A stretch of 64,000 nt of DNA, taken from the NCBI GenBank assembly GCA_002794785.1, contig NBBA01000001.1:1-64000 (forward strand). Direction: 5' to 3'. Positions 2,393-47,155 of the stretch are shown piece by piece. Each line of letters starts with the position of its first letter. Position 1 is the first letter of the stretch. The notes beneath the pieces were generated by a model. It was not told where the DNA came from, ran no database searches, and was given only the letters and a program-made list of their open reading frames with translations. The position numbers were made by a program, and so were the translations under genes. The stretch is from Coniferiporia sulphurascens (lineage: Eukaryota; Basidiomycota; Agaricomycetes; Hymenochaetales; Hymenochaetaceae).

Positions 2393-2999
2393 TATCAAAT
2401 AGCTTTGTAGCTGAGGTGCACGTGATGCACAGGAGATGTGTGGCTAAGTCGGGGCGGATGCTGCCAGTGACAGTTTCTCTGGTAAGGGCTCCGCGCCAAG
2501 GCCAACCTTATCATACGGAGGGATGCGTGGGACCGAAAATGATCTCTTCTTTCGCACTCCTGTAACAAATTCATAATTGAGTTTGATTTGAGGACTGTGA
2601 TTAGGTATAGTAGGTAGGTGCTCACAAGAGTTTGTGTGTATAGAAAGCACTGATGGCGGGACCCACCCCAGTAAAGTAACATTATCTTAAAGTGTCGTGG
2701 CTGTCCCTGAGTCGTCGTTAACCAGGTTCTTGTAGACGTTCTAGGTGTTCTGAAGGGATGCGAGAGTATTACGAAATTCCGCGCTTCCTCGAGAAATCTG
2801 GCATGGATCTAGGTGATTTGCAATCACGGGAGTTGAGGGTTAAAATTTGTTGAATGACCGCAGTCACGACGAGAGTACTACTAGCTCGATGTCACTGGGA
2901 CGAGCTACCAATGGTCTGTACGATTCTTGTTGTCAGTGACGACAATTATTACGATGAGAGCGATGGTGGTAGCGGCGAAGCACCGAGCGTCTGGGGCAG

Positions 3000-3400
3000 T
3001 GTGGTGAAAAGGCAGTGGATGTAAAGTTCAGTAAGGTTAACCGCGAGACTGATTCGAGAAGTGAGGTGAGCTGAGTTTCCTTCCGGTTCCTGCGAGCTAC
3101 TTAGTGATGCTTATTGATTCATATTGGGGTAGAGAATGACACGGCGTGTAGGGAATGGATGGTCACCCGTTCAATGAGGTTTCGCATGCACATCGACCCC
3201 AGCACAGAAGCGACGTGTTGCTACGCCTCAAGCTCTCTGCGTGGGCGACTCGCTTGAAAATTTCATTTCTTTAGATTTCTGACCTATTCATCTCTTCATT
3301 TTCGATAGATGGTTGAGGTCGACGATGCGTTCGCCACGGAGAACGGCGGTGCCAGAGCCGGTCGCTTTTGTGTTACGTCGAGAGTCAAATTTCAAGCAGC
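3000..3400 (+). pseudogene. Relic of the NTF2/SnoaL-like gene (third copy)
   Basis: This stretch aligns by eye with the intact minus-strand gene at 14215-14887, in the opposite orientation. Three blocks match in order: the end of exon 1 with its donor (gaagtgaggtgagct near 3060), exon 2 (tggtcacccgttcaatga near 3165) and exon 3 after an acceptor (cggtgccagagcc near 3350). Most of exon 1 is missing and the frame is broken. The 3' flank matches the copy at 18.1 kb even better. It sits divergently from DUF6533 copy 1, as the other two copies do from theirs. Confidence 0.6.
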
Positions 3401-21513: not shown

Positions 21514-22860
21514 TGTTAGATTCGCTCCCTGATTAAGGGTTAGGAACAAGTGATAACAGATTCACACAATGATACTAGTTAGTTTAGGGTAGGCTTGGTA
21601 CCCTTCACTCGCTAGAGTGTTAGAGCTGATGATGGTGGTAAGAGACAAGAGATGAATTAAACTGCTTTTTACCACAATTTTACGTTGGGCTTTTATACCC
21701 TACATGTTGTAGTCTATTTACTATGTTCTGGTAGATACTACAACATACTACTCTCGCTTTATAAGTCATAAGAATGTTCCAGTACAATCCTGTACATGCT
21801 ATTTACTATCTTTAGTTTTCTTATGAGTCAGTTACATATTCCGGTATGTTCTACAGCCTACTGTGCTATCTTTATCTTATGCCAGAACCTTCCCTGAGTT
21901 TCCATCGAGTCATACAGTATAATACCTAAGTTAACCATTCTCGGATACTACTATACCTATGATGCTTCTCCTTATTTCCTAATTGGTTCTGCTGTGCAAT
22001 GCGCTATACTTGGCTCCCATCAATTGCGTCTTCAATTGATTGCCATGCTTCCATTGGCTTTTCTTAGCCAAATGCTTAGATATACTTGTGTGGCTCAGCA
22101 ATGATGCTGTCCTTCTTAATCTTATCTTGTTGTGGCTTGTTACTTATTATCATAGACTAATCTTGAGTCATTTCCATTATTGCATTGAAAGGGGTTCATT
22201 CTGGTGTCCTATCGTCTACTGGCATAAAGAGCTCCTCAGGCCCTATAGAGTTGATATTCGTTATCCTGCTATACCTGGGTGTGATTCTATATGATGGTTC
22301 ATCATTGAACCATTGTATTATAATTTCCTTATCTATTGGTACTAACTCCTGTCTTTGATTGGGTTCCTTTCGATCTACTGTTGTGTGTCCTTTGGCTATG
22401 AAGTTGGCTTTGTATGTGAATAGTTGTTCTCATAATTGTTTATTGATAGTATGAACTATTTGGTGTGCCACTTCTGCATAATCGGTTGATGTAATAACCA
22501 CCCTTTGATAACATAATTCATTATGTGGCTGATTATAAATCTTGGTTCTTGTGTAAGCACTGATTACATATCTATTCAATTGGTATGAGAACATAGTCGC
22601 TCTATGTTCAATTATTACTTCCAGCCTTTCCGCCACTTGTTGTTCCCTTGTAGTATGATCGAATGTAATTTGACAGTTGTCATATCCTGCATTCTGTCCT
22701 ACTGTTGTGCATGCAATATTAAAAGCTTTCCATGCTACTTGATCTGCATCTTTACAGCGTTGGCACAGGTTCCTTGTATCGATTAAAGTTACAGGTCTTG
22801 CCATGTCGATCTTGCTAATCCGTTGATCTGGCGATCACGATTTTCATCAATTTACTAACA
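21514..22860 (-). mobile_element. Element X copy A: TG...CA unit with one ORF
   Basis: A 1,347-bp unit whose ends are fixed by alignment with copy B (33853-41434, 1,350 bp once nested insertions are removed). Read on the minus strand it starts TGTTAGTAAATTG and ends GAATCTAACA, so it has TG...CA ends with a 6-bp inverted match. An ORF starts 56 bp from the 5' end (22804). About 460 bp after the ORF is a TATA box (gggtataaaa, 21700-21691), then the block agtttaattc about 33 nt later, and about 185 bp to the end. This fits U3-with-ORF, R, U5 of an LTR. The flanks (cttag/cttct) are not a target duplication, so its neighbourhood is rearranged. The right flank is a gypsy ORF3 fragment. Confidence 0.75.
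22157..22804 (-). pseudogene. Element X ORF, copy A (two in-frame TGA)
   Basis: A 216-codon frame for a protein with no family I recognise. It starts MARPVTLIDTRNLCQRCKDA, with a CxxC pair at residues ~14-17, and continues through GQNAGYDNCQITFDHTTRE and FSYQLNRYVISAY to the C-terminal motif ELFMPVDDRTPE. Two TGA codons interrupt it, at 22430-22432 and 22196-22198. At the second, copy B has CAA, so CGA is the simplest common ancestor (C-to-T in one copy, G-to-A in the other). No transmembrane segment, RT or integrase motif is seen. Copies B and C share the CxxC, a YxNCQI block and the IDDRT end, so selection on the protein is plausible. Role unknown. Confidence 0.65.
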
Positions 22861-23003
22861 CTTCTCCGCTTAGCTGATCTCCACAACCAGGCAGTCCGCC
22901 AACATGAGCAGCTCCATCAACAACACCAACAGCAACAATGACTCCGAGTACCACCGCCAGCACCAGCATGCTACTTGGAGGCAATACCCCCAACCCCAGC
23001 GCC
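22861..23003 (+). pseudogene. Fragment of gypsy ORF3/ORF4 junction from another element copy
   Basis: This fragment, in plus orientation, matches the ORF3 end and ORF4 start of the gypsy element at 25.4-24.85 kb. It encodes LLRLADLHNQAVRQHEQL, then a TGA that overlaps the ATG of the next frame (caATGActccg), then MTPSTTAS of ORF4. It stops at the edge of the 3' LTR of the gypsy element at 23004. It shows that the ORF3-ORF4 overlap exists in a second, independent copy. Confidence 0.8.
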
Positions 23004-23564
23004 TGTTAAGCTCAATGGTTATGCGGTGATCGACGTTGGGGCTTCCTGATCATCGAGGCTGATGGTTACAACAATGGGGCTTCCTAGATGTCATAGGTCA
23101 AATGTGATTGGTGATGGGGCTTCCTGATCGTTGATAGAGTACATGGTGTCTTCTTAGAGGAGTTGGGTTACGACAAAGTGCCAGATGATGAGGTAGAGCG
23201 CACAGTGGGCACTGAGGCGCATATAATGGGCTTGTATGAACAAAGAGCACAAGCTTAGCACTTGTGCGATCTATGTTACATGCTTATATGCTACTCTATG
23301 TGTTTGCTACTGTGGTGTCTTGTGTAAGGTCATTTACATGGCTATGGAAGGTCATGGAAACCCAAGGAAGGTCTTGGTAATACAAGTAAGGCAATCAGTA
23401 AGCAAAGCATGTCATGGTGATGTGATGTGGCATCATCATGGCATCTTATGGTGTGAGGCGAATAAGGATGAGTAATAGAGAGAAATGGGGGAGTTGCGCT
23501 GACTGGTGATGATGAAGAGGGAGTGAGTCAGCACAGTAAGGGAAAAGTAAGGAAAAATGTAACA
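23004..23564 (-). repeat. LTR-B, 3' LTR of the gypsy element
   Basis: 561 bp, from tgttaagctc to ggaaaaatgtaaca on the plus strand. It is preceded on the minus strand by the purine-rich tract aaatgggaggcac. It carries the LTR-B features: TATA, an AAGCTTGTGCT block 32 nt downstream, and three aggaagcccc motifs in U5 (reverse complement on this strand). Confidence 0.9.
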
Positions 23565-33820: not shown

Positions 33821-33889
33821 ACTATATCCCAGGAAGCTGCAAAGGCACCAACTGTTAGATTCACTCCCTGATTAAGGGTTAGAAACAAG

Positions 33890-34145
33890 TATTAAATAAA
33901 TATAACGAACGAACTAAATATAAAGGTGGTCATATGAACATCCATCTTACTAAGTAAACGATAACACAATGATAACACCATACGATAGGAGCTATGATAG
34001 TTATAGTATACATAGCCCACAGTAGATGTATATAAGGAGAGCTGGTCTCTACCATGAAATACATTGGTTTACACTGATAACCCACCTTTGCCTCAACCTC
34101 ACCACTGCACCTCATCATCTACCACAATGTGCGTAGATTTTAAGA
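33890..34145 (+). repeat. Copia 5' LTR
   Basis: 256 bp, tattaaataaat to gattttaaga, with tatataag near 34030. About 98% identical to the 3' LTR. Confidence 0.95.
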
Positions 34146-34156
34146 GGTTATGAGCC
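34146..34156 (+). promoter_or_regulatory. Copia primer-binding site, half-tRNA-iMet type
   Basis: ggttatgagcc directly follows the 5' LTR. Its complement, GGCTCATAACC, is the anticodon stem-loop of initiator tRNA-Met (CAT anticodon), the priming site used by copia-type elements that prime from a cleaved half tRNA. Confidence 0.75.
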
Positions 34157-34214
34157 TTGACTCTACAACTAATGAAACGATTAATGAATTTATAAATCCT
34201 CGAATAACGAAACT

Positions 34215-37200
34215 ATGTCCAACGGACAGAAACCCAACACTCATGAGCAAACACGTTTGCAAAAATTATCAGGACTACAAATAATCGCTAACGAACTAAA
34301 AATAACATATACACAGTCATCAACTATTGAAGAACTCAAAGAAAAAATTCAAAAAGCTAAAGATAGCAAAAGGTTAGTTGACTTAATAGTTCAATGTAAC
34401 CTAAGACAAATACCTATTAACAGAACGGAACAACAAATACAAGACCGAATCAACAGGTACAATAACTCTACAAATGACGAAAAATTAAAAATAAAAACTG
34501 ACTATAAAGCCAAATTAACAAATCACGCTAAAGATCTAGGAATATCAGATCAAGGAAAATCATCCGAAATCCAATACCAAATAAGTACATATTTGGGTAT
34601 ATCAGATCCAAATGAAAAAGAACAATTTAAAATTGACAATCCTTATATTAAGCCAGAAAAAGAAGACAATAAAAAAGAAGATGAAGAAAAAAAAGAAGAT
34701 AACAAAGAAGAAAATACCGAAGAATCCAAAAATAACCCATCACGTGAGCCATCAGAACCATCTGATCCTGACGATTCAGATGCTAACGACACCGAGGAAG
34801 ATGAACTGAGTATGGCAACTAAACTTGCGGAACTCCAGAAATTCTTCGATGGAATTGAGAAACTCGATGGGCACAGAAACTACAAACTCTGGAATTACAG
34901 AGTCTGAAGCGCAATCGAGAGTGCAGGTTATGGTAACCTGCTCACTAACTCCCCAGGAACTGGAGAGATTGGTATATCAAGCACTTTATATAACGGCATT
35001 ATGTGCACTATGCCCGACAAAATATTGGCTTATTATCTTAATTTCTCTAAAGATATTCCAGCGCTACTCAAAGTGCTTGACGGATGATATAACATCCAGA
35101 CAACAATTACAAAGGGCTTTAACAAGGCTGCCCTTTTTGATATCAGAGGTCATGTCAGCCATTTTGATGGAATGCTCGATAACCTCAGCAATAAATACAA
35201 GGAACTCATAGCCCAAGGGGTAAAAGTTTCAGAGTTGACATACATATCAGCTATTACGAGGGCAACACCCGAACAATACCAATATGTACTCATGCAGAGT
35301 GAGTTATATATTAAAACAATTAATGAAATGAATCCAGACAAAGATGAAATTGAACTAACCCCTCAATTCCTACTAACGGCACTAAGAAACGCCTTCAAGG
35401 GGTGGCGTAAAAATCATCAGAGGACAGGAGCAGCGGCTAATCACCTGCCCAAGGATGAGCAGACCCACCCCTATTTTAGGGGCCGCGGACACGGTTTTAG
35501 CCGCGGAGTACAGCCATGAGGTCGCGGCTATAGAGGCCGTGGAGGATATATATGAGGACGAGGACAAGGGGGATATTCCCCTAACCAACAATCACACATC
35601 ATTAAGTGCTACAACTGTAATAAGCTAGGGCACTTTAGTCGAGACTGCTGGGCACCTAAAACGGAATGGACGAAGGCAGCTCAGAAGAAGAAAGAGGACG
35701 CGAACAACGAAAAAGGAAAAGGGAAGGAAACGGGTGTGTCAGCGGCACCAACATCGACTGGGGCAAGTGCGGCCCAGGCTAAACATACCGCAGCAGCAGC
35801 AGCAACAAATGTTGCATCGAGCTCTCAAATCGAGTTAAGCCCCATAATAGGCCAAGGCAAAACCGCCTTCATAACCAAAATCAATGACAATGACTTCGAC
35901 ATGGGAGAATTCCCAATTTATTCTTATAATGACTTCCTTGACACTCTAGGAAATCATGACAGCGCAATGGAAGATGTGGATGACAATAATTTAGATGTAA
36001 GCATTAATGCTATAACAACAGAAGAATTCGCTAACAATATTTATTCTTCTATGGATATAATTGATACTGGTGCAATGATACACTTAACACCATATCTAAA
36101 TCAATTACGAAATACTTACAAAACTAATGCAATTACGATAACAGCTGCCAACAAAACAACATTTATGGCAAACATAGTAGGGGATCTTAAGCTTTACATC
36201 CCCAATGGACACTCAGTAAGTGTCATAACATTATCGAACATATACTACAATCCTAAAATGAATATGACATTAGTCTCTCAAGGACTTCTATGTCAAGACG
36301 GCTATGAATTTATTTATAAAGAAAATGAATGTACAATAAAGTATCCTAATGGATCTTTATGCAGAAAAATTAAAAACACAAATGGATTGTATAGTATATT
36401 TAACAACAATGTACAAGTGGCTACAAAAAATGTAACCTTATTTGAACTTCACAAAAAACTTGGACATATAAGCTATGCTTATATAAAATGATTACTAAAA
36501 GAAGATCAAATTACAAACAATAAAATTTCAAATTATGATGAAACCCAATGTAAAATTTGCATAGAAGCAAATATAAAAAGAATGCAAATCCCAAAATTAT
36601 GTATTTCAAAATTAGCAGAAAAATTTGGTGATCACATACATATGGACATATGGGGTCCAGCATCCACACATGCTATAGGAGGATATAAATATCTTCTAAC
36701 ACTTGTAGACAATGCTACAAGATGGATAAAAATGATTTTATTAAAAACAAAAGATGAGGGCTTAAATGCTTATACGACTTGGGCTACAATGCTCAATACT
36801 CAACATAATATAAAGATAAAAATATTACAAAGCGATAACGATACAGTGTTTCTAAGTAAACAATTCACTGAATATTTAGAGAAACATGGAACCATACGAA
36901 AGCTGACTGTTCACAATACACCACAACAAAACAGAGTAGCAGAACGATCACATCAAACGATTCTAAATAATACATGAGTAAATCTGCTACAAGCAAAACT
37001 ATCACCCAGTTTATGGGGAGAAGCTGTAAAATACAGTACTTATGTTTACAATAGAACGCCAAAGAGCACTATTGATTTTAAAACACCATATTTCAAATGA
37101 TATAATGAAAATTACAACATAGACGATTTAAAAGAATTCGGCCAATATTGCATAATACGACAAGAAGACATTAACAAATTACAACCAAAAGGAATTTATG

Positions 37201-39059
37201 CACAATGGCTAGGATTTGATGAAGAAAGCAAAGGTCATAGAACCTATCACAACAGAAAAATTACAGTCGAACGAAATCTACAATTTTTAGATTCTCCACC
37301 ATCTAAAATTGAAGGGGAGAATATAACAGAAAAATATAACAAACAAATACAAGAATTAACAAAAGAAAGACCATCAAGAACAATAAAACCAACAAAACGA
37401 TCACTAGGTCTTAACTTTGACAAACAAAATACAGTTGCCTATCTTACTGAATTCAATCAATTCAATACAGAATTAATAGGCGATCCAAATTCATATCAAC
37501 AAGCGATCAATAGAATTGACGCAAATCAGTGGATCTCGGCAATGGAAGAAGAAATAAAAACATTAATCGAGAGATCTACATGGTCAATCATCGATCCACC
37601 AAAAGATATAAACATAATCAGAACAAGATTTGTATATAAAACAAAAAGATTCGCAAACAGAGAAATCAAACGTTACAAAGCAAGATTAGTAGTTCAAGGA
37701 TTTGCCCAGAAAGAGGGTATAGACTACTATTCAAACGATACATTCGCTCCAGTGGCAAGATTAGCCACAGTAAGAACTATATTAAGTTGGAGCGCAACAA
37801 ACAATTACGAAATTCACCAAATCGATATAAAATCAGCTTACTTATATGGTGAATTAGAAAAAGACGAAAACATATACATAAAACCACCACCAGGAAATCT
37901 AATTGAAACTAAACCTGGACAAGTTTTAAAATTAAATAAAGCCTTATACGGATTGAAACAAGCAGGCAGACGATGGTATAAAAAATTATCAGAAATATTA
38001 ATAGGAATAGGACTAACACAAGCAGTCCAAGACAATGCAGTATTCCTAAGAAAAGTAAAAGGAAAAACAATTTTAGTACTTTTCATTCATGTTGACGACA
38101 TAACAATATGTGGCTTAAATTTATTAATAATAAAAGCCTTTAAAGACGAAATAGGAAAACATGTAAAATTTACTGACGGAAACGATATACATTGGTTACT
38201 CAGAATTGAAATTGAAAGAAACCGAGAAGAAAGAATTATAAAACTAAGACAAAAGAATTATATTGATAATATAATTGAAAAATATAAATTAAAAGACGCT
38301 GCAACAGTACGAACACCAATGACACCAGGACAAGTGTTAAAATCACTTGAAAATCCAACTAATGAAGAATTAAAATTCATGCAACAAATACCATATATGA
38401 ATATGGTTGGAGCATTACGATATGCAGCAGACTGTACAAGACCTGATATATCATTCGCAACAGGTCAATTTGCTAGGCATTTGAATAAACCTAGTATCGA
38501 ACATTACAATGCAGTAAAACACTGCTTTAAATATTTGAAAGGAACAAATGATTATTGGTTAATACTTGGAGGTAAAGAACCAATCGAGTTAATTGGATAT
38601 ACCGATGCTGACAGAATGACACAAGAAGGACATAAAGCAATATCCGGATATATATTCCAAATAGGAAACACAATGATGTCATGGTCAAGTAAAAAACAAG
38701 AATTAGTGTCATTATCAGTATGTGAAGCTGAATTACAAGCTTTAACTCGTGGAGTAAAAGAAGCTATATGGCTAAGAAGACTGGTTGAAGAGGTACTGCA
38801 GACCTTGGATACACCTACGAAAATATTATGTGATAATCAAGCAGCCATAACCATAGTAAACTCAACTGAACAAAAATATATGCAATGAACAAAGCATATT
38901 GATATACGAAAAGATTTCTTATGAGATTACATTGAAAATGAAACCATATCAGTTTCATATATTCCAACTGGACAGCAAAAGGCTGATATTATGATGAAAG
39001 CGCTAATGATAGAATTAATCAAACGTTTTACAAGTCTACTCCGCCTAGTAAAAGTTTGA
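34215..39059 (+). pseudogene. gag-pol: Copia gag-pol, one frame interrupted only by TGA codons
   Basis: One continuous frame of 1,615 codons from ATG 34215 to a TGA at 39057-39059. Gag has a coiled, Lys/Glu-rich N-terminus, an RG-rich box near 35.5 kb and a CCHC knuckle (CYNCNKLGHFSRDC, near 35.61 kb). Protease DTGAMIHL is near 36.07 kb; integrase has HMDIWGPAS and a QSDNDTVF block. RT starts with RYKARLVVQGF and has HVDDITICG near 38.09 kb; RNase H ends with the TKHIDIR motif. Nine internal TGA codons (34905, 35085, 35517, 35553, 36489, 36975, 37098, 38886, 38922) are the only breaks: no TAA, TAG or frameshift. Most sit where Arg is expected (RG box, before TKHID), pointing to CGA-to-TGA change. 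Inactive without readthrough. Confidence 0.9.
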
Positions 39060-39066
39060 AGGGGAG

Positions 39067-39322
39067 TATTAAATAAATATAATGAACAAACTAAATATAA
39101 AGGTGGTCATATGAACATCCATCTTACTAAGTAAACGATAACACAATGATAACGCCATACGATAGGAGCTATGATAGTTATAGTATACATAGCCCACAGT
39201 AGATGTATATAAGGAGAGCTGGTCTCTACCATGAAATACATTGGTTTACACTGATAACCCACCTTTGCCTCAACCTCACCACTGCACCTCATCGTCTACC
39301 ACAATGTGCATAGATTTTAAGA
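39067..39322 (+). repeat. Copia 3' LTR
   Basis: 256 bp, directly after the gaaggggag polypurine tract. Differs from the 5' LTR at five CpG sites only. Confidence 0.95.
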
Positions 39323-39872
39323 ACAAGTGATAACAGATTCACAATAATACTAGTTAGTTTAGGGCAGGCTTAGTACCCTTCACTCACTAGAGTGTTAGAG
39401 CTGATGATGGTGGTAATAGACAAGAGTGAATTAAACTGCTTTTTACCACAATTTTACATTGGGCTTTTATACCCTACATGTTGTAGTCTATTTACTACAT
39501 TCTGGTATGTACCACTACATACTACTATGTGTTTGTAAGTCATAGGAATGTTCCAGTACAATCCTGTACATGCTATTTACTATCCTTAGCTTCCTATGAG
39601 TCAGTTACATATTCCAGTATGTTCTACAGCCTACCATGCTATCTTTATCCTTACTAGAACCTTCCCCTAGTTTCCATTGAGTCATAAAGCATAATACCTA
39701 AGGTAACCAGTCTTGGATACTACCTTTACCTAAATGCTTCTACTAGTTTTCTAATTGGTTCTCTTGTGCAATGCGTTATTTGTGGCTCCCATCAATTACA
39801 TCTTCAATTGATCATCATGCTTCCATCAGCTATTCTTAGCTGAATGCTTAGATATACTTGTGTGGCTCAGCA

Positions 39873-40661
39873 TGTTACATTTTTCCTTACTTTTCCCTTA
39901 CTGTGCTGACTCACTCCCTCTTCATCATCACCAGTCAGCACAACTCCCCCATTTCTCTCTATTACTCATCCTTATTCGCCTCACACCATAAGACACCATG
40001 ATGACACCACATCACATCACCATGACATGCTTTGCTTACTGATTGCCTTACTTGTATTACCAAGACATTCCTTGGGTTTCCATGACCTTCCATAGCCATG
40101 TAAACGACCTTACACAAGATGCTACAGTAGCAAACACATAGAGTAGCATATAAGCATGTAACGTAGATCGCACAAGCCCTAAGCTTGTGCTCTTTGTTCA
40201 TACAAGCCCATTATCTGCTACCACCAGTCTACTGTGTGCCTCAGGCCACTAGTTGCTTCGTCATAACCCGACTTCGCTAAAGAAGCATACTGCGTCCACA
40301 TTGTCGATCAGGAAGCCCCACTGACGATCATCTTCGACTTACGACATCTAGGAAGCCCCGTTGCTGTAACTACCAGTCCCGACAATCAGGAAGCCCCGAC
40401 GTCGATCCCCATGTAACCGTCGAGCTTAACAAGCCCATTATATGTGCCTCAGTGCCCTCTGTGTGCTCTACCTCATCATCTGGCACTTCATTGTAACCCA
40501 ACTCCTCTAAAGAAGACACCACGTACTCTATCGACAATCAGGAAGCCCCACCACCAATCACATTCGACTTACAACATCTAGGAAGCCCTGTTGTCATAAC
40601 CATCAGCCTCAACAATCAGGAAGCCCCGACATCGATCACCGCATAACCATTGAGCTTAACA
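39873..40661 (+). mobile_element. LTR-B plus partial second LTR-B in tandem
   Basis: A complete LTR-B (39873-40431) is followed directly by a second R/U5 segment (40432-40661) of a different LTR-B subtype. The whole block is flanked by one target duplication, cagca (39868-39872 and 40662-40666). The insertion is within element X copy B. Confidence 0.85.
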
Positions 40662-40742
40662 CAGCATTTATGCTAGCCTTCTGAATCTTATCTTGTTGTG
40701 GCTTGTTACTTATTACTGTGGACTAAGATTGAGTCATTCCAC

Positions 40743-41378
40743 CTATAGATTAATGATATCAGTGAAAGGGGTTTGCTCTGGTGTCCTATCGTCTATTAGC
40801 ATAAAGAGCTCTTCAGGCCCTGCATTCATAAGGTTTACAATTCTATTGTAACCTGTCATGACTTGATATGATGGTTCCTCATTCATCCAGTGCATTAGGA
40901 GTTCTCTGTCCATGTTCATCATCTGAGGTGTTCCTTCTTCTCTTTGATCTACTGTTGTATTTCCTTTGGCTACAAAGTTGTTCATGTATGTGAACATTTG
41001 TTCTCATAATTGCTTATTGATATTGTGAACTATTTGGTTGGCGTTCTTAGCATAATCTGTTTGTGCTATCACTGTTCATTGATAACATAAGTTATTATGT
41101 GGCCGATTACATATCCTAGTTCTGATGTAAGCATTGATTACCCACTTGTTTAATTGGTAAGAGAACATCATGGCTTTGTGTTTGATTACAATTTCTTGTT
41201 TGTCCATTACTGGTATTTCCCTTGTAGTGTGATTGAATATGATTTGACAGTTATCATATCCCATGTTTGTGCCTATTGTTGCACATGCTATGTCAAATAC
41301 TTTCCAGCTAATTAGATTTGCATCTTTACATTGCTGACACATTCCCTGAGTATCTATTACATTTATGGGTCTCTCCAT
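40743..41378 (-). pseudogene. Element X ORF, copy B (two in-frame TGA)
   Basis: 212-codon frame homologous to the copy A ORF: MERPINVIDTQGMCQQCKDA at the start (CxxC kept), MGYDNCQIIFNHTTRE in the middle, and ELFMLIDDRTPEQTPF near the end. TGA codons are at 41076-41078, where copy A has AGG (Arg), and at 41004-41006, where copy A also has TGA and copy C has a Cys codon. The similarity to copy A runs the full length. Same unknown family, same CpG-type damage. Confidence 0.65.
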
Positions 41379-41434
41379 GTCGATCTTGCTAATCCATCGA
41401 TCCAGTGATCATGATTTTCATCAATTTACTAACA

Positions 41435-43760: not shown

Positions 43761-44195
43761 GCATGTATATAAGGACTCACTTTCAGAGCACTAAGCCTTA
43801 AGCTTGTGCTCTTTGTTCAATAGAGCCTACTCATCTACTATCTCCTCTGTGAGATATTAAGTCACCAGTCACTAAGTCTACCAGTCTACTAGTCCTTGGG
43901 GAAACCCTTGCTCAATTATTGTCTCATCTCTACCTCATTTCCACTTGGTCGATCCTCATTGATCGCTTATTAAGCCTTACCTAATCAGTAGGCTTAACAG
44001 TGTGTAGGGCTTCGGACTTGGTTCCCTGGCACATACAACAGTGTAGAAATGCCCTGTCAATTTCAAAAAAAAAGTGGAAGCCAACCAGGAGTTGGCAACA
44101 CTAAAGTTCTGTTAGGAATTGATGTATAAGCTTGCTTACAAGCTTAGACAATGATACCAGCAACTACCAATACAGGAAGGGACTCCCACAGATAC

Positions 44196-44290
44196 TGTCA
44201 GGAATCCCCTCATTTTTCCGATCATTTTCCATATTTTTACTTATTTTTCCCATCATTATTCATCAACTTACTGCATTAGGATTCCTGACA
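44196..44290 (+). repeat. 95-bp block with 12-bp inverted ends
   Basis: Starts TGTCAGGAATCC and ends GGATTCCTGACA. A reverse-complement copy is at 47526-47620, and about 90 bp beyond its inner side is also shared. It may be a small MITE-like insert or the end of an LTR; the flanks show no clear target duplication. Confidence 0.7.
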
Positions 44291-44437
44291 TATGCACACA
44301 TGATCAGCAGTCACATGGTAGTTGGTATATAGTCACATGACACAGTGCACTGACTGATACTATACAGTAGCACTGCTTCAGTTCCCATGGTGGGCTGTGA
44401 GCTTATAAACCCGACCTTTTCACTGTAGCAAGGTTTC

Positions 44438-44999
44438 TGTTAAGCTCAGCTAGATGTGGGAGATCAACAACAGGGCTTCCTGATGTCAGTTAACTGAGTG
44501 GTCGGCATTGGTGCTTCCTGATGCCGTTAATGAGGTTGATTGATGAAGGGGCTTCCTGATCGATGATGATACGTGGTGTCTTCTTTGGTATTGTCAGTTT
44601 ACGACACAGAGGCGGCTTGACTGGTTAAAGCACACAGTAGGTGGTGAGGCACATATAGTGGGCTTGTATGAACAAAGAGCACAAGCTTAGGGCTTGTGCT
44701 TATCAACTTTACAGGCTTTTATACTACTCAGTGTGTTTACTCCTGTTAGTGGGTGGTCTGGGATGGTTTACATGACTATGGAAGGTCATGGAACAACATA
44801 GAACTATCAGTAAGCAGATGGTGTTCATGATGATGCAATAAGGCATCATCATGGTGTAATAGAGTGGGGGTGAGTAAGGATGACACAATAAGGCATCATC
44901 ATGGTGCAATATAGAGAGATGGGGGAGTTACGCTGACTGGTGATGACAAAGAGGAGGTGAGTCAGCATAAAAAAGGGAAAACAAAGTAAAAATGTAACA
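44438..44999 (-). mobile_element. LTR-B nested in element X copy C
   Basis: 562 bp, a diverged LTR-B, with a perfect target duplication gtttc (44433-44437 and 45000-45004). It lies between the 5' TATA-containing module and the ORF. Confidence 0.9.
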
Positions 45000-45206
45000 G
45001 TTTCCCACTTTTGACCTCTTGTGGATTCCTTGCAGGTGAGTGTAGTAGATAGTGATTAGGGTACTGAATATTGACTTGTGGATTCCTTGCAGTTGCAAGC
45101 ACTCTATTGGTGGTTCAAAGCTTGCAGGTCTTGAGCTTATATTGATTACTTGATCTCATCATTTGCACTGCAAGTTGTGACAGATACCATCCAGTGATCA
45201 TTCAAC

Positions 45207-45872
45207 ATGGGGACAGAAGTAACTAGAAAACCAGGACTTCTTGGGAACATCAGGCCAATCACAATGCTCAACCAACCACTAAAGACTCTTGATACATCAA
45301 GACTCTGCCACCAATGCCAGACTGCATACAATCAATCATGGGAAGCATTTAATATGGTAATGACTGAATGCTTTTATATGGCAGGGTACACCAACTGCCA
45401 GATAACTACAGATCATGCTGTAGACCCTATAGGCAATGGCATGGAGGTCAGGGTAACACATACAACACAAATGTACATCTTTGATGTACAGGAGTTTTTG
45501 CACAATGTCCATGTCCAGATGATAGTGAACCCACACATACATGACAAGGAATGTGAACTATGAGTGGTATCAGGATCATTCCCATACAGGACATTGCAGG
45601 ACAACACATTCATAGCTAACGCTCACCGATTATGTGCAAAGGTAATCACCCTCTTCAAGAATCTATCAGCAAAGGGATCAATGACTGCCAATCAGCAGAT
45701 CCACAATGTTAATCTTTACATGATAACACTATGGTTATCAAATGGATCACCACTGGCAGCACCTCCAGGATACATGAGATGTATCACTAGGATAAACCAC
45801 ATTAATGAACCACCAGATAACATGATTGATGACAGGACACTGACTGGAAGGTACCCACCTATGGACCTTTAG
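45207..45872 (+). pseudogene. Element X ORF, copy C (one in-frame TGA)
   Basis: 222-codon frame, the most diverged and least damaged of the three. It starts MGTEVTRKPGLLGNIRP and has the CxxC segment TLDTSRLCHQCQTAYNQSW, the block MAGYTNCQITTDHAV, and ends NMIDDRTLTGRYPPMDL. The single TGA (45561-45563) is at the position where copy A has AGG (Arg) and copy B also has TGA. At a second site where A and B have TGA, this copy has Cys, again one step from an Arg CGN codon. The protein is kept across clearly diverged copies, which suggests past selection; no known family recognised. Confidence 0.65.
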
Positions 45873-46595
45873 CCAATATCACATTACACAATTAAGCCAC
45901 ACTCAGCAGGAACCAAAGTGCTTATCAAGCCAGCCACAAACCTTAACTGACAAGTGTCCAAGATGACAGGACAACATGGAGGAACCAGTACAGGAGGCCA
46001 ACAAGACAAGTTAATGACTTACCAATCATCAAGCTGTTAGGCAGCATATTAACAAGAAGCCACTGGCACATAAGTCTACAGGGTAGTGTGCTGTAACAGT
46101 GGGGTGACATGCACAGCCTAAGTGTCATGGTAGAGTCATTATGACAGTGTATGACTCCACAATGAGCTTGGTGGAGCCTAGTGGAGCCTAGTGGAGTGCA
46201 TGGAGTGCAGTGGGGCCACAGTGGAGCCCCAATGGCCAATCATAGATAGTTATTCTCATATGATCACCTTATGGTGTCATTTGCACTGGTATGCAGCTCC
46301 AAGTCACTGGAGTTTATGATGTTGCTGTGAGGCACCATAGCTCCAAGTGCAGAGCCTTGTGGAGCATCTGCTGTGGAGTGTATTCAAGTGGAGCTTCTTC
46401 TTCATGTATATAAGGAGGGCCTAGGCCAGCCTAGAGCCCCAGTTTAATTCACCTTCTCAATTCTCTCAGACTTCTCCTGAGCAAAGTACCAACATCTACT
46501 GACTTATTCTTGACTCAATCACATGCCTCAACTCTATCTCAACTACTTGTTCCATTGGCTAACCACAGTTACCCTTGGTCCTAACAAGTTCAGCC

Positions 46596-47155
46596 TGTTA
46601 AGCTCAACGGTTACACGGTGATCGATGTCGGGGCTTCCTGATCGTCGGAACTGATGGTATGGCAACGGGGCTTCCTGGATGTCGTAAGTCGAGGGATGAT
46701 CGTCGATGGGGCTTCCTGATTGGCGATGTGGACGCGGTAGGCTTCTTATAGCGAGTCGGGTTACGACGAAGTGACTAAGAGTCAAGAGGCACGCAGTGGG
46801 CTTGGTGGTAGCAGATAATGGGCTTGTATGAACAAAGAGCACAAGCTTAGGGCTTGTGCTACTGAAGTTACATGCTTATATGCTATTCTATGTGTTTGCT
46901 ACTGTAGCGACTTGGTTAGGTATGTTGACCAGCCCATAGAAGGGCATGGAACTCAAGGGGATGCCTTGGTAATACAAGTACGGTGATCAGTAAGCAAAGC
47001 ACGTCATGATGGTGCAAGAAGGCGTCATCATGGCATCTTATGGCGCAAGGTGAATAAGGATGAGTAAGGCAGAGAAATGGGGGAGTTGTGCTGACTGATG
47101 ATGACGAAGAGGAAGTGAGTCAGCGCAGTAGGAGAAGTAATAGAAAATTGTAACA
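46596..47155 (-). mobile_element. Solo LTR-B
   Basis: 560 bp, with a perfect target duplication cagcc (46591-46595 and 47156-47160), inserted a few bases beyond the target duplication of element X copy C. Confidence 0.95.

Follow-up and report, generated by a model that had tools for sequence, protein, structure and literature searches.

Contig C1 of the Coniferiporia sulphurascens assembly (39.3 Mb in 31 contigs) begins with the 64,000-nucleotide stretch analysed here and referred to as the window, which contains three units that share their ends and each carry one open reading frame (ORF). What are these units, and what is the ORF doing inside them? A reading of the letters alone (the sequence-only reading) had described them as solo LTRs that hold a gene in their U3. 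All three have the TGTTAG...CTAACA ends that it reported: unit A (21514..22860, minus strand in the sense of its ORF), a putative solo LTR of 1347 bp; unit B (33853..41434, minus strand), a putative D-type LTR with nested insertions; and unit C (44110..46586, plus strand), a putative solo LTR of 1490 bp plus a 987-bp nested insertion. The exact 5-bp target duplication (TSD) of unit C, agttc on both sides, was found again, whereas neither unit A (cttag/cttct) nor unit B (ccaac/gggag) has one.

The units do have one ORF each, of 215 codons in A (22160..22804, minus strand), 211 in B (40746..41378, minus strand) and 221 in C (45207..45869, plus strand), but all three are interrupted by TGA. There are two in-frame TGA codons in A, two ahead of the natural stop in B and one in C, and other copies of the A and C ORFs are intact. 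The unit B ORF is 81% identical to the homolog P0001. Genome-wide, the in-frame stops of ORF copies are mostly TGA, and those in the window stand at sites that encode arginine in other copies, which looks like decay of methylated CpG. The downstream part of each unit is arranged as had been described, with a TATA box and a conserved block, AGTTTAATTCA, that begins 34 nt past the first T of TATA in all three. The TATA boxes of units A and C lie at 21691..21697 (minus strand; pattern match 21514-21697:-, control 0) and 46407..46413 (plus strand, pattern match). The block itself, at which the mRNA and with it R is proposed to start and which would serve as self-primer, lies at 21653..21663 (minus strand) in A, at 39427..39437 (minus strand, sequence match) in B and at 46441..46451 (plus strand) in C, and from there to the 3' end of the LTR there are 150 nt in unit A and 146 nt in unit C. 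The sequence-only reading of the three units is thus partly confirmed as an observation.

Two of the units have themselves been targets of insertion. Unit B contains a Ty1/Copia element (33890..39322, plus strand; RVT_2 match C1:37575-38324) with 256-bp LTRs and the TSD acaag, and its LTRs read TATTAA...TTAAGA, not TG...CA. The LTR-like insertion in unit C (987 bp, 44196..45182, no strand assigned) has TGTCAG...TGTGACA ends and the TSD gatac. Similar pieces, mostly 68-75% alike, are found close to a number of C-type units and at other sites in the window, and the insertion may represent another solo LTR family. A diverged repeat with the motif GGGGCTTCCTGAT also occurs beside or inside several units (40220-40660, 44440-44680, 46590-46780 and 23000-23100).

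Searches of the whole genome confirmed that the window units exceed chance, as they are repeated both as full units and as protein matches. With unit A as DNA query and the best 40 candidates scored, 39 of 45 matches covered the full unit (1-1346 or 1-1347), and the 38 full-unit matches other than unit A itself were 93-95% identical to it. The core of unit C (unit positions 1-90 plus 1071-2477) recurs at 88-92% identity, again with the best 40 candidates of the genome DNA search scored. At the protein level, the A-type ORF gave at least 150 matches (the best 150 of 320 candidates) and the C-type ORF gave 97 rows, part of them fragments of single units. Window unit B and its D-type relatives L081, L082 and L083 are closer to A than to C.

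To describe insertion, we used the 82 units for which both ends were cut out. The three window units were kept apart from this set, as were units with a missing, interrupted or second end (e.g., L047, L048, L053, L071, L079, L082, L084 and L089). An exact 5-bp TSD flanks 44 of the 82 units and a further eight have one mismatch, with a chance expectation of about 0.1; the units thus show the TG...CA ends with a target duplication of 4-6 bp by which LTRs are recognised, and the prospect that most copies would lack a 5-bp duplication did not materialise. For some units the lack of an exact TSD is accounted for by an exchange of flanks. Reciprocally swapped flanks, which crossover between inverted copies should produce, are seen in a pair on contig C23 (atatg/cacat) and in the contig C7 pair in L076 (gtcac/ctccc). 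A DNA transposon with terminal inverted repeats was considered as a class and rejected, as it calls for longer inverted termini and a transposase, and the units have inverted termini of only 6-8 bp and an ORF with no credible transposase match.

If the units are LTRs, traces of an internal region should adjoin them. The sequence-only reading had stated that no RT or integrase accompanies any copy. This is true inside the window but false genome-wide, where gag or pol sequences adjoin unit ends at two loci. An A-type unit at C2:700944 and one on contig C14 (L090) are preceded by a common upstream sequence, in register over 318 bp at 90% identity. This shared tail consists of the end of a polyprotein, a stop and then TTAAGAAGGGTGG on contig C2 or TTAAGAAGGGCAG on contig C14, directly 5' of TGTTAG. 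As a query, the 470-bp tail (C2:700474-700943) matched only three places in the genome: itself, the 318 bp on contig C14 (90%) and C2:526621-526670. The last of these (50 bp, 84%) precedes a C-type unit, and there TTAGAGGGGGTGG abuts TGTTAG. The tracts at the three junctions are the purine tracts (PPTs) that precede 3' LTRs. The exact PPT pattern, RRGGGTGGTGTTAG, occurs at five places in the genome, two of which are the tail junctions on contig C2; the junction on contig C14 is a variant.

Upstream of the A-type tail on contig C2 we found RT, RNase H and an Integrase_H2C2 zinc finger (L112), and further along the same contig (L116) SH3_Tf2-1 (PF24626, 7.5e-18) and Chromo (PF00385, 4.6e-14). 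This pol is not intact. An inverted A unit truncates it at the 5' side, and a C unit that inserted with the TSD gttcc separates it from the tail; the pol frame reaches this C unit and resumes beyond it, and the stretch C2:697651-698187 falls outside the reading. A close pol was found at one further locus only, on contig C18 (69% over 352 residues), all others among the best 100 of 107 candidates being at most 43% identical. The nearest solved structure to the RT is that of Ty3 (2e-49). The order gag-PR-RT-RH-IN with a gypsy-type RT, which characterises Ty3/gypsy elements, is present when pieced together from the two loci, with IN seen as zinc finger, SH3 and chromodomain. The chromodomain lies at the integrase C-terminus, as in the Tf1/sushi group.

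The locus on contig C18 (L052, C18:245372-254809) supplies the other edge of the internal region. It starts with a C-type unit, and 2 nt past CTAACA lies TGAATTAAACT (C18:247058-247068), the exact 11-nt complement of AGTTTAATTCA. Behind this putative PBS follow gag (a weak Ty3_capsid match, below the cut-off), zf-CCHC, the RVP_2 protease, RVT_1 and RNase H. The locus is rearranged: the LTR has a second copy in inverted orientation, and a leader of 2.2 kb stands ahead of gag. The outer flanks of the LTR pair are identical, which marks it as an inverted duplication. The leader (L052:1685-3930) contains ORFs of 195 aa (1673-2260) and 256 aa (2604-3374) with no credible Pfam match; it may hold a gene of its own or have been inserted from elsewhere. 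A PPT immediately 5' of an LTR and a PBS immediately 3' of one are thus both seen, at two exact PPT junctions plus the variant on contig C14 and at one PBS junction, though never both at one locus.

The self-primer of Tf1 uses 11 nt. According to a published account, self-priming from the mRNA 5' end onto a PBS just past the 5' LTR is common in the Tf1/sushi group (PMC10085805), and another study accepts a self-primer if its match covers 10 bp or more and begins 0-5 bp past the 5' LTR (PMC6317226). On contig C18, 11 of 11 nt are complementary, 2 nt past the LTR, to the inferred mRNA 5' end; the sequence-only reading had put the block at the start of R with no knowledge of this PBS. The pattern TAACA-N0-8-TGAATTAAACT occurs at two places in the genome (control 0), one being this LTR-PBS junction (C18:247051) and the other the antisense R of an A unit. 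Among 64 units, the one at this junction alone is followed, 0-5 nt past its 3' end, by 11 nt complementary to a stretch of its own last 220 nt, the next best being 9 nt, and no PBS was seen for the A type. The block AGTTTAATTCA is exact in 38/38 A units and 26/26 C units. It is not the sole invariant stretch: 65 of the 1338 11-mers in A do not vary, nor do 130 of the 1465 in C. When one A and one C reference LTR are compared, however, CAGTTTAATTCA, the self-primer, is the only exact 12-mer that they share outside the ORF. A need to pair with the PBS would account for the presence of this block in two otherwise unlike LTRs. In the fold of the first 192 nt, nucleotides 1-11 pair with the PBS in the MFE structure and likewise in the centroid. 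The overall fold is no better than that of shuffled sequences (z -0.97), and of the three-duplex 'pretzel' of Tf1 only the central 11-bp duplex was seen. We read AGTTTAATTCA as the probable self-primer at the mRNA 5' end.

Internal sequences have nearly disappeared from this genome. There are more than 200 LTR matches, three internal tails, two loci with a close pol and one with a close zinc-knuckle/protease piece (best 150 candidates). A genome search for pairs of units that flank gag-pol yielded no complete pair, nor was a complete element with two direct LTRs found; at the internal remnants, an LTR in the right orientation stands on just one side. Nor did the genome show a larger element bounded by different ends. 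The 150 A rows and 82 of the 97 C-type rows (15, mostly second pieces, were excluded) contained 11 direct pairs within 10 kb, of which seven include a unit that has its own exact TSD, one includes a unit whose TSD has one mismatch and one has unlike outer flanks.

Neighbouring units also differ by orientation, as shown by a comparison of 78 of the 82 units. Direct neighbours are few and unlike (89.8-95.5% in three comparable pairs within 20 kb), whereas inverted neighbours within 12 kb are at least 99.1% identical in 7/9 A pairs and at least 99.3% in 4/4 C pairs. Far pairs average 93.4% in A (n=1160, maximum 97.9) and 93.2% in C (n=400, maximum 95.9). Near-identical inverted neighbours include L075, L077, L059, L055/L056, L032 and L036; in L075 and L077 the pair members have different, perfect TSDs of their own. 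We read the near-identical inverted solo LTRs as probable products of gene conversion, sometimes resolved as inversion (the contig C23 and L076 pairs).

Next, we consider the ORF. It starts at unit position 57 in A and 106 in C, and the whole of it lies upstream of the TATA box. If R begins at AGTTTAATTCA, the ORF would be entirely within U3 and thus be a U3 gene. On contig C2 the pol stop lies 67 nt before the LTR, and with the 56 nt that precede the ORF in the unit, the ORF begins 123 nt past it. The ORF is ancient, with 27% identity (E 1e-23) between its A and C proteins. In an alignment of six sequences, two of them partial, 19 residues are invariant, including C14, C17, C44, H50, H67, H94 and C98 of the A protein. 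Two homologs come from other sources, P0001 (63%) and P0002 (67% over 58% of the length). Pfam scans listed to E 10 gave no credible family for the U3 protein, with no MMTV sag family among those listed and no credible match to a known transposase or gag, which would have spoken against the sequence-only reading. Among solved structures it has no relative, and its predicted model, which at pLDDT 58.8 is too poor to name a fold, gave no fold match.

Comparison of copies points to constraint on the protein, as far as the A and D types are concerned. Pairwise comparisons inside and across the A and D types give a dN/dS of 0.13-0.36, and those among three C copies give 0.23-0.51; between A/D and C the measure is saturated. 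For variants within types, CpG-type changes were filtered out and 67 of the 82 units were used; the others were nine copies that were long or conversion-paired, three more members of pairs and three copies of the D type or of divergent sequence. Variants shared by at least three of 42 A copies comprise 33 nonsynonymous (N) and 41 synonymous (S) changes against an expected N/S of 2.87, with 0 stops against 7.0 expected. Singletons gave 50/44 in A (ratio 0.38; 7 stops against 7.9 expected) and 19/25 in C (ratio 0.28; 0 stops against 3.1 expected), and shared variants in C gave 12/4, which at a ratio of 0.98 reveals no constraint. All these ratios are rough, because the filter relied on whichever letter was most frequent in each column and because, in A, synonymous changes appeared denser than noncoding ones. 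A dN/dS test across copies, which the sequence-only reading had proposed, is thus clear for A and D, where values are low, but mixed for C. The U3 ORF appears to be constrained in A and D, and less clearly so in C.

These results bear on three other explanations. The unit could be the whole mobile element, as a DNA transposon with short TIRs or as a single LTR that moves by itself, with the gag-pol pieces as chance neighbours. The 44 measured copies that stand alone with their own exact TSD would fit this, as would the lack of an LTR pair among all nine resolvable direct pairs. However, a purine-tract tail or the 11-nt PBS lies at unit edges in four places, in the order and orientation that are correct for an LTR and in both the A and C types. 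The shortness of the inverted termini and the failure of the ORF to resemble a transposase point the same way. Given the PBS and PPT junctions, we regard this explanation as largely refuted and very unlikely.

The two remaining explanations accept the LTRs and concern the ORF. It could be a passenger, either a captured fragment or a spurious frame, that does nothing for the element. This would agree with the 58 of 82 measured copies that have no ORF of 200 aa (24 have one at least that long), with the unconstrained shared variants in C and with the lack of a known domain. We nevertheless think it improbable, as the A and C proteins are recognisably related although their reference LTRs share a single exact 12-mer outside the ORF, the A and D copies have low dN/dS with zero shared stops in A, and homologs exist in other sources. 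Alternatively, the ORF could have been domesticated, with some copies serving the host, which would explain why many intact copies survive while close gag-pol relatives are nearly gone, and why N/S is low even among A singletons. Stops among those singletons accumulate at the neutral rate, though, and singletons from a 42-copy sample are not purely post-insertion changes; domestication thus seems highly improbable.

The solo LTR interpretation of the sequence-only reading, with U3-ORF, R and U5, is supported by features outside the window, namely the purine tracts, the self-priming PBS and the gag-pol remnants that adjoin unit ends. We are confident that these units belong, as LTRs that now mostly stand solo, to a self-priming Ty3/gypsy chromovirus whose plan is related to that of the Tf1/sushi group, and that the LTRs have a complete gene of about 215 aa in U3. 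The LTR would be composed of U3 with this gene, the TATA box, R and U5. Pol II would start at AGTTTAATTCA in the 5' LTR, and the first 11 nt of the RNA would pair back with TGAATTAAACT just past the 5' LTR; after RNase H cleavage they would prime minus-strand DNA. Plus-strand DNA would be primed by the purine tract, and integrase would insert the copy, making the 5-bp duplication. In the genomic RNA the U3 gene would come third and last among the cistrons, placed like an env gene. It would lie inside the LTR because the purine tract is upstream of it, and from this position it would be present in two copies per element, only the 3' one of which is transcribed from the element's promoter. Recombination between LTRs would later have deleted the internal regions, leaving hundreds of LTRs with ORFs that are now decaying. 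As to what the U3 protein does, our guess is that it is small, binds metal and has an accessory or regulatory role in the element.

Among known systems, the Tf1/sushi chromoviruses (Tf1, Tf2, Tosmo and Tj1), as far as the available text describes them, share with this element a Ty3/gypsy pol, a Tf2-like SH3 and chromodomain, the self-primer and PBS, a 5-bp TSD and a PPT at the 3' LTR (PMC10085805). The LTRs here are longer, 1.35-1.5 kb with a complete U3 gene, against about 0.4 kb for Tcry1, the one member of the group whose LTR length served for comparison. The present element also has a long 5' leader, and no complete copy of it was found. Genes in addition to gag-pol have been described in other LTR retrotransposons, such as ORF3 of bdelloids (PMC5408684) and ORF0 of rice Retrosat2 (PMC3485330); ORF0 lies upstream of the gag-pol ORF, and the accessible account of ORF3 states no LTR location. 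In fungi, the gypsy element crapaud of Podospora has a variable U3 and subfamilies known only from solo or fragment copies, but its divergent U3 is shorter than 200 bp and no LTR gene is mentioned in the available text (PMC10787394). A literature search by titles and abstracts, a weak negative as subscription literature was mostly outside its coverage, found no gene in the LTR of a cellular retrotransposon.

LTRs are normally read as regulatory DNA. In MMTV, the protein-coding sag gene lies within U3 and occurs in each of the two LTRs. The element described here resembles it in having a protein gene within U3, which would occur in both LTRs, and differs in host kingdom and in element clade, MMTV being a betaretrovirus. 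We consider it likely that this lineage has kept a selected accessory gene wholly in U3 across at least three diverged LTR types (A, D and C) and at least one other source. As the last RNA cistron, present in both LTRs, this gene would match MMTV sag in plan, but outside the retroviruses. It would have originated when a third gene, in the env position, ended up downstream of the site that primes the plus strand, and would outlive gag-pol in hundreds of LTRs. If this is true, a U3 gene conserved as a protein in a cellular retrotransposon means that the MMTV-like plan can arise outside retroviruses. As such a gene is copied into every solo LTR, it would spread and survive in hundreds of copies as gag and pol disappear. 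A self-primer may likewise be recognisable from solo LTRs alone, as AGTTTAATTCA was here, and the role of an accessory protein in a Tf1-type element would become testable.
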